Shown here in pieces: positions 2 to 10,915 of a DNA stretch of 64,000 nt; the stretch's first letter is position 1; the number at the start of each line of letters is the position of its first letter. The position numbers and the translations under genes are program-made. The DNA comes from Leptotrichia wadei (GTDB taxonomy: Bacteria > Fusobacteriota > Fusobacteriia > Fusobacteriales > Leptotrichiaceae), in contig NZ_AP019841.1 in the NCBI RefSeq assembly GCF_007990445.1, forward strand, positions 1,426,001 through 1,490,000, read 5' to 3'. The notes under the pieces were generated by a model. That model worked only from the letters and a program-made list of their open reading frames with translations, did not search any database and had not been told where the DNA came from.

Positions 2-303
2 GTTGGAAATAAAACTAAATTTGATGATGAAGAAGCTAAGAAAGCTAATGAAATCGAAATTGTTTCTGGAAAAAAAGGGAAAATGAGAAAGCATCTAAAA
101 ATAAAAGAAAAAAAGCAAAAAAAAAAAGACGATAAAAGAGTAAGAAAAATGAAAAAATACTAAAAAAACAAGCAAAAAGAAAACGAGGTTAAAAATCTAA
201 TAACACAGAAACTAAAAAAACTACTACAAAAAGTAGCGGAAATAAAAAGAAAAAAAGACTGGGATAGAATAGTGAGAACATATGGAGTAGGAGGTAAAAA
301 GTG
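2..303 (+). pseudogene. C-terminal remnant of a prophage tail protein
   Basis: An open frame enters from the left edge and ends at a stop at 161-163. It encodes a Lys/Glu-rich tail (FDDEEAKKANEIEIVSGKKG followed by poly-Lys stretches). A second frame carries the more phage-like end WDRIVRTYGVGG and stops at 301-303. The simplest reading is one gene C-terminus broken by at least one indel in the A-rich stretch between about 160 and 240. Its place just before the baseplate spike gene suggests the late-control D/XkdQ type of tail protein. That identity is inference from gene order only. The 5' part lies outside the window. Confidence 0.4.
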
Positions 304-5701: not shown

Positions 5702-6114
5702 GGAAAATGTAGGGACTGAAAATAAGAAATATTGAAGTAATGAAAGCTGCAATTGAAAACAGTCCGTATGATTTTAGAATTACGAGTGGAGCAAGAACAA
5801 CAGAAGAACAAAAAGCATTATTTGCGTTAGGAAGAACTAAACCAGGGAAAATTGTAACATATGCCAATGGTGTTACTTCAAAATCTAATCATCAAATTAA
5901 AAGTGATGGATTTGGACATGCAGTTGATATATTTTTAACAGGAGTTTATGAAAACGGAAGTTATCGAAAATTTTCAGAACAGGAAGGTTACGATGTTAAA
6001 AGATTGAAAGATGTTGCAGATCATATCTTGGCAGTTGCAAAATCCAAAAACATTAACATCGGATGGGGTGGAAACTGGAAAAAGAAAGATACGCCACATT
6101 TTGAACTAAAATAA
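5685..6114 (+). pseudogene. Phage lysis peptidase, M15-type (VanY/L-alanyl-D-glutamate peptidase-like), frameshifted
   Basis: A TTG at 5685 behind AAAGGAGGAGTAT starts MKDWDKENVGTENKKY, which then stops. A one-base change near 5730 would join it to the downstream frame beginning MKAAIENSPYDFRITSGART at 5740 and ending at 6114. The downstream part has the M15 zinc-site pattern: S-x-H near SNHQIKSDGFGHAVDIF and the late W-G-G-x-W and D-T-P-H-F-E. The fold and metal ligands therefore remain, but the natural start is lost. Together with the preceding glycosidase it would have formed a two-enzyme lysis set. Confidence 0.65.
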
Positions 6115-7616: not shown

Positions 7617-9078
7617 TTGGTCAAAATTTGTATCAATAAGATAAGTGAGGATATTGTAAAAGATTTTAAAATAGATGGGAAAAATGAAGATTTAAAATAT
7701 TATGAGGACGTTTTCAATGTGAATGATTTTATTAAACAAGAAAAATTTTAATTTTAGGATATAAAGGCACAGGAAAAACATATTTTTAAAAAAAAGTAAG
7801 AGAAATTAAAGAAGAAAATAATTTTAAAATTATTAATTGCAATATGGAAAAGTTTTATCTTATTTTGAATAAATTAGATAAAACTAAGATAGAAAATATA
7901 AGAAAAGAATTAGATATGATTTGGAAATTTATGATTTTTATTGAAATCTTTAAGAGAATAAAAGATGAAAAATGAATGGAGAAAATAGAAAAATCTTAAG
8001 TTAATAAATAAATTTTTGCAAAAAAATAGTTTTCTTTTGAACCTATCTTCTGATAAGATAATAAGTAAAATTATAGAAAGAGAAATCGAAACACAAATTG
8101 AAACCAATTTACTTGAAAAATTATTTTCTACTATAAAAAATAGATTTAATTTAAAAGAACAGAAAAGTTCTGTAAAAGCAGAATACTATGATTTTTTGGA
8201 AGATTTTGAAGAAAAAACATCATCAATTTTGAGTGAATGTACATTTGGAATAGGAATTTTTTTGATGAATTGGATTCTAAGTTTGAAAAGGTACTGAAAA
8301 TGAAAGAATATTACTTTCGTTATTAGAAGAAACCAAAAGATTAAATTATGAATATGAAAATCTCGATATTTTTGTATGTTTGAGAACAGAAATATTTGAA
8401 TTGTTAAATTCTCCTGATTTAAACAAAATAAAAGAAGATAAATCAATTACCTTTAAATGGGATAGACGGACCTTATTAAAAGTAATAAAAAAGAGACTTG
8501 GAGAAGACAATGAATCTGACTCTGAGTTTATAAAAAAATATTTTGAAAGTAACAAAAAAAGAATAAATTTAAAAAACAATAAAAAGAAAATAGAAATTTT
8601 TAAATATATATTAAACAAAACGAGATACAGACCAAGAGATGTAGTTGCATTCTTTAAATATGTTTTTGAAAATAATCCAGAAATCCCTATAATTAATGAA
8701 ACGTTGGATAAAGAATATGGTTATTCCAATTATTTGTATCAAGAAATCAAAAATGAATTATCCGGATTTTATGATAATAGAAAAATAGAGGATATATTCA
8801 ATAAAATAAAAAAATTCAATAAGAGTGCTTTTATCATTAAAGATTTTTTAAAAGAAAATAGAATAGATAAGAAGCAAAAAGAGTTTTATTTGAATTTTTT
8901 TAAGAAATTATACGATTTAGGTATTATAAATATTGTGCAAATACAAAATGGACATAAGGAAAATATTTTAAATTATAATATTGATGGTTCATATTTATTA
9001 GATGAAAAATGTTTTGTAGCAATAAACTACGGATTAAGAAATCATCTAAAATTATATAATCCAGATAGCAATAATTAA
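7617..9078 (+). pseudogene. P-loop ATPase, Sll1717-like, broken by several indels and stops
   Basis: The early part reads ISEDIVKDFKIDGKNEDLKY and then DVFNVNDFIKQEK, followed after a frame change by the Walker A segment LGYKGTGKTYF near 7755-7790. Frames shift again near 7785, and stops occur near 7975-8010. The largest remaining piece, 8380-9078 (232 aa), carries CLRTEIFELLNSPDLNKIKE-type sequence, WDRRTLLKVIKKRL, TRYRPRDVVAFFKY and a C-terminal winged-helix-like end. This order fits the Sll1717-type P-loop ATPases, mostly of unknown function and often in accessory or defence-like regions. The ATPase core is destroyed, so only a fragment could be made. Confidence 0.55.
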
Positions 9079-9152
9079 AAAATGCCTTGCAATTCTAAGC
9101 GGCTGCTGAATCACAAGGCGATATACTAAAAGTATTTATCAGTTTTATTTAT
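9077..9152 (-). ncRNA. Candidate short sRNA, about 75 nt
   Basis: A consensus minus-strand promoter (9159-9186) is followed within about 75 nt by an intrinsic terminator. GCCTTG and CAAGGC (9084-9089 with 9114-9119) enclose a 24-nt loop containing CAGCAGCCGC, and six T follow on the minus strand (9077-9082). No open frame fits, so the product is probably an untranslated RNA. The terminator tail overlaps the stop codon of the convergent ATPase pseudogene. Family unknown. Confidence 0.5.
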
Positions 9153-9158
9153 GTTTTA

Positions 9159-9186
9159 ATTATAGCATATTTTCTTAAAATGTCAA
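9159..9186 (-). promoter_or_regulatory. Consensus promoter for the minus-strand sRNA
   Basis: On the minus strand TTGACA (9186-9181), a 16-bp spacer and TATAAT (9164-9159). Both boxes are perfect. It starts right behind the terminator of the 46-aa ORF. Confidence 0.65.
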
Positions 9187-9195
9187 CCAAAAAAC

Positions 9196-9215
9196 AAGAG
9201 CCAATTAAGGCTCTT
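9196..9215 (-). terminator. Intrinsic terminator of the 46-aa ORF
   Basis: AAGAGCC (9196-9202) and GGCTCTT (9209-9215) form a 7-bp stem with a 6-nt loop that includes the stop codon. The minus strand continues with a T-rich tail (GTTTTTTGG). Confidence 0.7.
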
Positions 9216-9345
9216 CTTCAATTTCTTTTATTATATTTTCAATTTCAATTTTTAATTCTTTTAACTCTTTAAGATCCATTTCTTTTAGAACTTTTATTTT
9301 AAGTTCATTTAAATTTTTAATTTCTTTTTCTTTGATTTTTTTCAT
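9205..9345 (-). CDS. Small charged helical protein (46 aa), unknown
   Basis: On the minus strand ATG 9345 follows GGAGTTAAA, a good ribosome binding site, and opens MKKIKEKEIKNLNELKIKVL. It ends EIEEEP at a TAA inside the terminator stem. The protein is nearly all Lys, Glu, Leu and Ile and would form one long amphipathic helix or coiled coil. Its own binding site and terminator support a real gene. The promoter is less clear; TTGCTA with TACTAC upstream is weak. A divergent short RNA starts about 45 bp upstream. No family is recognised. Confidence 0.5.
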   Translation of the reverse strand: MKKIKEKEIKNLNELKIKVLKEMDLKELKELKIEIENIIKEIEEEP

Positions 9346-9562: not shown

Positions 9563-9594
9563 ACCCTTGGAAACACTGGTTTTCAGGGGTTTTT
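9563..9594 (+). terminator. Strong intrinsic terminator hairpin
   Basis: A 12-bp stem with two G-T wobbles (ACCCTTGGAAAC at 9563-9574 with GTTTTCAGGGGT at 9579-9590) and a 4-nt loop is followed by a T run. No gene on the plus strand ends nearby. The stretch 9445-9560 shows nothing recognisable. Confidence 0.5.
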
Positions 9595-9653
9595 ATTTTA
9601 CGAAATTTTATTAAAGCTATTGAATATTTTTTTAACAAAAAGATAGCAAGAAG

Positions 9654-9817: not shown

Positions 9818-10915
9818 ATGAAATATAATTTAGCATTCAAATACAGAATTTATCCAAATAAAGAGCAGAAATTATTGATAAATAAGACTTTTGGATGTGT
9901 TCGTTTTGTTTACAATACGATTTTGTGTATCGCTAATAAAATTTATGAAGAAACTGGAAAAAATAAAATAATTACACCTGCCAGTTTGAAAAGTGAAAAT
10001 CAATTTTTAAAAGAAGTAGACAGCTTGGCACTTTCAAATGCTCAATTGAATGTAAAACGATCGTTTACAAATTTTTTTCAAAAGAGAGCAAAGTTTCCAA
10101 AGTTCAAATCTAAAAAAAATAGTGTCAAAAGTTATACGACAAATTGTGTGAACAATTCGATACGAATTGAAGAAAACAAATACTTGGTTTTGCCAAAATT
10201 GAAAAAAGTTAAATTAAAATATCATAGAGAAATACCGAAGGATTACAAGATAAAATCAGTAACATTGACAAACAGTAATGGAAATTACTATGTTTCTATT
10301 TTGACGGAATTTAAAAAGGAAATTCAAAAGGTAGCTAGTAATGATAAAGTAACAGGACTTGATTTTTCAATGTCTGAATTATTTGTCAGTTCTGAAAACC
10401 AAAGAGCTGATTATCCAAAATATTTTAGGATGTTGGAAGAAGAATTGAAAAAATTACAGAAATCATTATCGAGAAAAGTGAAATTTTCTAAAAATTGGTA
10501 TAAGCAAAAAGCGAAAATATCAAAATTGCATGAGTATATCAAGAATTGCCGAAGAGATTTTTTGCATAAATTGTCGAAAAAATTGTCTGAAACATATAAT
10601 GCTGTGGTTGTTGAGGATTTGAATATGAAAGGGATGAGTCAGGCATTAAATTTTGGTAAAAGTGTAGGAGATAATGGCTGGGGAATGTTTTTGAAAATGC
10701 TTGAGTATAAGTTGATGTTTTTAGGGAAACAATTTTTTAAGATAAATAAATGGTTTCCGTCATCGAAAACTTGTAGTAGATGTGGAAATATTAAAGAGGA
10801 ACTGAAATTATCAGAAAGAAGTTATAAATGTGAGTGCTGTGGGATTGAAATTGATAGAGATTACAATGCGGCACTGAATATAAAAAACATTGGAAAAGCG
10901 ATGTTGGAATATTAA
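9818..10915 (+). CDS. tnpB: TnpB RNA-guided endonuclease (IS605 OrfB family)
   Basis: This protein is 365 aa, starting at ATG 9818 behind AAAGGAGGTGTAATTTT. TnpB proteins are RNA-guided nucleases related to Cas12. They use an RNA from the element's right end to cut matching DNA and favour retention of the element. The N-terminus has the family segment KYRIYPNKEQKLLINKTFG. All RuvC parts are present: GLDFSMSELF (first Asp), VVVEDLNMKGM (Glu) and the late DRDYNAALNI (Asp). A four-Cys zinc finger, CSRCG...CECCG, lies just before the last motif. The length is slightly under the usual 370-400 aa because the linker around NFFQKRAKFPKFK is compact. No frameshift is seen, unlike the adjoining prophage, so it is probably active. 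Confidence 0.9.
   Translation: MKYNLAFKYRIYPNKEQKLLINKTFGCVRFVYNTILCIANKIYEETGKNKIITPASLKSENQFLKEVDSLALSNAQLNVKRSFTNFFQKRAKFPKFKSKKNSVKSYTTNCVNNSIRIEENKYLVLPKLKKVKLKYHREIPKDYKIKSVTLTNSNGNYYVSILTEFKKEIQKVASNDKVTGLDFSMSELFVSSENQRADYPKYFRMLEEELKKLQKSLSRKVKFSKNWYKQKAKISKLHEYIKNCRRDFLHKLSKKLSETYNAVVVEDLNMKGMSQALNFGKSVGDNGWGMFLKMLEYKLMFLGKQFFKINKWFPSSKTCSRCGNIKEELKLSERSYKCECCGIEIDRDYNAALNIKNIGKAMLEY

Follow-up and report, generated by a model that had tools for sequence, protein, structure and literature searches.

A candidate small RNA gene at the end of a Leptotrichia wadei prophage, with a hairpin core that recurs in the terS leaders of other phages

The window, a 64,000-nt stretch of DNA from Leptotrichia wadei (genome G000), opens inside a prophage. 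The prophage spans 46 kb (G000:C1:1389581-1435600), is inserted next to rpsI and contributes its right end to the initial 9.6 kb of the window. It has an integrase at the left end and a set of terS, terL, portal, capsid, tail and lysis genes (translations read by eye). A minus-strand locus predicted to encode a small RNA fills its accessory slot beside attR. The features of the region are:

8016 to 9078, plus strand: convergent accessory gene, frame broken in the assembly; the only match of its product is PHROG 13260, of unknown function
9077 to 9082, minus strand: T6 tract that completes the intrinsic terminator and overlaps the convergent gene's stop codon
9077 to 9152, minus strand: predicted small RNA of ~75 nt, its start placed ~7 nt after the -10 element
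9083 to 9139, minus strand: 57-nt core common to the terS leaders of three other phages (57/57 against the G013 phage)
9084 to 9119, minus strand: main hairpin of 36 nt, made of 12 bp plus AGC/GCU, an AGCC tip and a 2-nt bulge (60/60 cells paired in four sequences)
9122 to 9134, minus strand: small upstream hairpin of 5 bp, ATACT-TTT-AGTAT, in which one of the four copies has lost the top pair
9159 to 9186, minus strand: sigma-70 promoter TTGACA-16-TATAAT with an extended -10 (12/12 consensus matches, TG before the -10)
9205 to 9345, minus strand: 46-aa prophage ORF adjoining attR, with its own terminator at 9196-9215
9563 to 9598, no strand: attR region, where similarity between the prophage and the circular copies ends; the start of the prophage is 46 kb upstream, next to rpsI

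The -35 TTGACA (9186-9181) and the -10 TATAAT (9164-9159) of the minus strand are separated by a spacer of 16 nt. The main hairpin (9119-9084) has GCCTTG/CAAGGC as its outer arms and is followed by an A at 9083 and then by the T run. All parts named by the initial annotation (a perfect TTGACA-16-TATAAT, about 75 nt, a GCCTTG/CAAGGC hairpin and six T) were present on this strand. The locus contained no credible ORF, as had been claimed; a 20-codon GTG frame, read by eye, crosses the hairpin without a ribosome site and extends past the terminator. The locus has what an intrinsically terminated small RNA gene would have, namely its own promoter at a suitable distance and a GC-containing hairpin followed by a T run, with no coding frame.

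The promoter was the single exact TTGACA-15..19-TATAAT in the 64-kb window, where 0.18 were expected per window (first-order Markov simulation with the dinucleotide content of the window). The combination of promoter, hairpin and T run appeared 0.0 times in 40 such simulations and once in the observed sequence. The promoter, terminator and spacing are more than chance. The predicted fold of the RNA was -21.5 kcal/mol (z of -3.8 or -4.7 in two shuffle runs) and was more stable than 199 of 200 shuffles. Promoter, terminator and simulation all agree with the earlier proposal of a stand-alone gene for a predicted RNA, and the locus is likely a small RNA gene that would be transcribed from its own promoter to its own terminator. 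Rfam release 15 returned no family above the gathering threshold (best sub-threshold score 17.7 bits against a cut-off of 60), in line with the suggestion that the RNA has no Rfam-type family. The 24-nt terminator loop had been described as much richer in G/C than its surroundings. G/C content is raised locally only (39% in the checked 56-nt stretch against 29.7% for the whole prophage), and the supposed loop is mostly paired.

The 46-aa ORF had homologues in eight other genomes of the genus and, including G000, in nine of 33 genomes of the family; at the nine loci read, it was followed by its own terminator-like stretch and then by other sequence, never by the RNA element or its core. The convergent accessory gene was split into several frames (window 7617-9078), with break points that differ among its three copies, a pattern that could reflect either sequencing indels or decay. 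A P-loop motif was seen by eye in the copy on contig C2, and no relatives of this gene were found in viral contigs. The position of this accessory gene next to the locus at the prophage end was counted in favour of a prophage small RNA gene, and of the mimic reading set out below. Immediately outside attR, at window 9818-10915, was an IS605-type tnpB (OrfB_IS605, Cas12f1-like TNB domain).

The RNA was present as well on two further contigs of the same genome, C2 (31 kb) and C3 (30 kb). Both contigs are circularly permuted deletion derivatives of the 46-kb prophage, lacking 15242-29947 in C2 and 22104-38278 in C3 (coordinates of the joined prophage region). A plasmid origin was rejected for this reason, and because they derive from the same prophage the two contigs are no independent evidence for the element. 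Integrase, att and RNA were kept on both (L050-L053), and the terminase and capsid genes were absent. They may be real defective circles or assembly artefacts, as there are many indels. A plasmid copy-control RNA was likewise set aside, since C2 and C3 are phage-derived and the neighbours, read by eye, are not replication genes. The initial annotation had proposed a search for relatives in Fusobacteriota and their plasmids; the further copies within the genome proved to be the same phage, and the real relatives are in the terS leaders of phages.

The 57-nt core (9139 to 9083) recurred in three other phages: those of G013 (57/57 identical) and G010 (94% over 62 nt), and the viral contig IMGVR_UViG_2806310704_000003 (92% over 62 nt). 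In all three it was directly upstream of terS and in the same sense, past a late promoter and a short terminator, so that the element has the leader terminator before it and the terS ribosome site after it. In the G010 phage, a sigma-region-4-like protein is the late regulator. Both the G010 and G013 terS belong to Terminase_2; the large subunits are Terminase_6 (G010) and Terminase_3 (G013). The IMG/VR phage and G010 were 96% identical over 4.1 kb around the terS region. Against the whole prophage, the G013 stretch had only the core in common besides one marginal 34-nt match (E 9e-4), and the IMG/VR stretch had the core alone. The G010 stretch also had other early-region DNA in common with the prophage, so the core is not the sole link there. 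The upstream flank of the window copy, including the promoter, is outside the conserved core, and flanks differ among the phages. The free-standing, promoter-bearing form was found in one prophage only, and all four copies sit at operon boundaries. We infer that the core is a portable 57-nt hairpin cassette in phages of one bacterial genus.

Pairing in the main stem was kept throughout the four copies. All 60 pair cells were retained and every main-stem substitution leaves a pair; in three pairs one side varies by way of G-U, and there is one series from G-C to G-U to A-U. Bulge and tip did not vary, the one exception to the letter-by-letter agreement of the tip being an A/G difference at a paired column. 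Loss of loop and stem in relatives had been named as evidence against the RNA; four independent copies keep both. A shuffle control for covariation was not significant, the same values being reached in 244 of 500 shuffles of the four sequences. The G-U intermediates would favour an RNA over a DNA palindrome, weakly so with four sequences. Ten bases of the universal 16S rRNA 530 loop are identical to the tip CAGCAGCCGC and its AGCC loop, a likeness that is possibly coincidence. Five other CCAGCAGCCGC sites in the genome possibly correspond to rRNA genes.

The four copies were used to build a covariance model, which was run over 96 genomes of the order. Eight genomes gave matches at E <= 0.1, of which those in G000, G010 and G013 were genuine; six weak matches, all without the tip, were set aside (one each in G062, G001, G048, G016 and G091, plus one more in G010). 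Altogether, covariance and pattern searches placed the element in three of 13 genomes of the genus plus one viral contig, and in none of 83 other genomes of the order. Among these genomes, the covariance search proposed by the initial annotation recovered the element within the host genus only. Over 61 viral sources (L058, L061-L120) the model found a single contig, present twice. A stem-only pattern gave 25 stretches in viral contigs, 24 with unrelated loops. Among 98 viral loci, 42 leaders were inspected by eye, and the search for the exact 11-nt tip covered every locus collected by then. Ten terS relatives were considered and the leaders of six inspected, two with the element and four without (L174, L175, L176 and L177 were not included). 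A scan for the core in general genome contigs, from which records near this genome may be absent, found nothing. An RNA anti-CRISPR is a mimic of a CRISPR repeat and would be similar to the repeat array of the host; no such similarity was seen, the genome holding no multi-copy match to the hairpin part at blastn sensitivity.

Four terS relatives (L171, L172, L173 and L178) lacked the element: in their leaders the terS ribosome site followed directly on a matching late promoter and terminator. Over 1,913 bp starting at terS (terS-terL), L171 and the IMG/VR phage had 97.5% identity. These relatives bear on a DNA site upstream of terS, whether for cos/pac packaging or for binding of another protein, an explanation that is highly unlikely and already largely refuted. 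A GC-rich palindrome between the late regulator and terS in three phages would suit such a site, and in those phages the element is next to the terminase genes; in this prophage, however, it is ~25 kb from terS/terL. The element was found with two terminase types, Terminase_6 and Terminase_3, and is absent from L171 in spite of the near-identical terS-terL region, on which grounds a packaging site was rejected. Gain and loss without a change of terminase excludes a cos/pac function, and changes that keep G-U pairs do not preserve a DNA palindrome. From these comparisons the element can be taken as a dispensable insertion and not as a cos/pac site. Improbable to a slightly greater degree is a put-like antiterminator RNA acting in cis on polymerase. 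The available part of one account gives HK022 putRNA as ~70 nt with two stem-loops (PMC9378689), and the phage leaders here have two successive hairpins in ~57 nt; two stem-loops within ~70 nt are thus present, in the predicted fold. Yet the element is downstream of the leader terminator, a position that argues against read-through, it is followed by T6 in this prophage, and relatives do without it. The likeness to putRNA, judged from size, hairpins and position, is that of a phage leader RNA of similar size with two stem-loops. As far as the available part of that account goes (PMC9378689), the two differ in their location with respect to terminators, which is the opposite; the element also has a free-standing form that carries a T6 of its own, and close relatives can dispense with it.

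A closer rival, although somewhat unlikely, is a passive cassette: a portable intergenic terminator or stable 3' end shuffled between operon boundaries, which here would end a short transcript or insulate convergent units, the RNA having no function in trans. Four of four copies at operon boundaries, copies that come and go between near-identical leaders, and the T6 directly after the hairpin in this prophage all agree with it. It does not account for a tip, bulge and 5' part as strictly conserved as the stem, which is beyond the needs of a terminator, or for a perfect promoter that faces the hairpin and has no other product. In the G013 phage, moreover, the hairpin is followed directly by ACTATTATTTTT, a poor terminator, and the real terminator of the operon is just upstream. 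Considerably more doubtful is a base-pairing small RNA whose GC-rich tip (CAGCAGCCGCUUAG) would pair with a host or phage mRNA, as the initial annotation had supposed in proposing selection of the loop for a target. The tip is indeed GC-rich and invariant, and target prediction gave one perfect 12-nt complement elsewhere in the genome (G000:C1:383249-383260, L230), within a host gene of the GmrSD_N type (type IV restriction-like), where it covers codons 12-16. This complement was lost in nine of nine GmrSD_N homologues, and G010, one of the genomes with the element, yielded no GmrSD_N homologue; the gene was rejected as a target because the complement is not conserved, and pairing of the loop with a target was not supported. 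The pattern is also frequent by codon usage, with 159 near matches (<=2 mismatches) against 16 in the reversed control.

The reading preferred here, tentatively and at less than even confidence, is that the locus may be a constitutive prophage small RNA mimicking a late-operon leader in trans. The body of the RNA is in the same sense as the late leader of the other phages and is therefore not plainly antisense, and a mimic is preferred for this reason. The best-supported part is a small prophage RNA that would be constitutively transcribed; we infer the mimic role. From its strong unregulated promoter the RNA would be made throughout lysogeny. It would then act in trans as a mimic, or decoy, of the late-operon leader of other phages by binding whatever recognises the hairpin on late transcripts, and such sequestration might disturb late expression of a competing phage that bears the element. 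A more specific version, that the prophage captured the late-leader hairpin of its competitors behind a strong constitutive promoter so that the decoy disables the late genes of superinfecting relatives, is rather unlikely. If the decoy reading were true, phages without the hairpin in the terS leader would be escape forms. L173 is a second prophage of the same genome with a related terS; its leader has no element, so this strain offers no demonstrated target phage. Two other modes of action were rejected: antisense action on the terS leader, for which the predicted duplex gain was too small (-2.2 and -4.8 kcal/mol), and ribosome-site sequestration by the leader, which was inconsistent between leaders.

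Few prophage small RNAs have a known role. The observation at this locus is real, and the candidate prophage small RNA is new, with an unusual relation to the late leaders of other phages. The same hairpin exists in one case as a free-standing RNA gene and in three cases as an insert that a terS leader may or may not have, with element-free relatives that are nearly identical around it. This natural series of leaders with and without the hairpin allows a direct test of its effect on late expression and of interference by the free-standing copy.

Prophage regulatory small RNAs named in the available part of one survey include DicF (53 nt), OOP (77 nt), SprY, StxS and sas (PMC12197685). The present RNA resembles these broadly, as a short non-coding RNA inside a prophage. 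As described there (PMC12197685), they have known targets or roles; the present RNA has no Rfam match and a body in common with the terS leaders of other phages. STnc6030 of BTP1, in the same part of that survey, is a prophage superinfection-exclusion RNA antisense to its target (PMC12197685). The likeness is that of a prophage RNA directed against other phages, here only proposed; unlike the antisense STnc6030, the present RNA is in the same sense as the leader and could act only as a mimic.

A literature search, with most subscription journals outside its reach, found no report of a comparable terS-leader RNA. Other non-coding stretches were seen in the loci collected. At ~1490-1640 of L028 and L029 (G011, G016), a strong TTGACA-TATAAT was followed by a conserved GC-containing non-coding stretch of ~100 nt with a T run at its end; it had no Rfam match and would seem to be a further unnamed small RNA in this genus. 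A conserved block of ~75 nt with GTAAACTG ... CAGTTTAGAG, also without an Rfam match, was directly upstream of terS in L082, L083, L084 and L087 (~5890-5985). Finally, tRNA genes were directly upstream of terS in two loci, one in L065 (5885-5967) and three in L066 (1436-1701), which shows that the space ahead of terS can accommodate RNA genes of other kinds.
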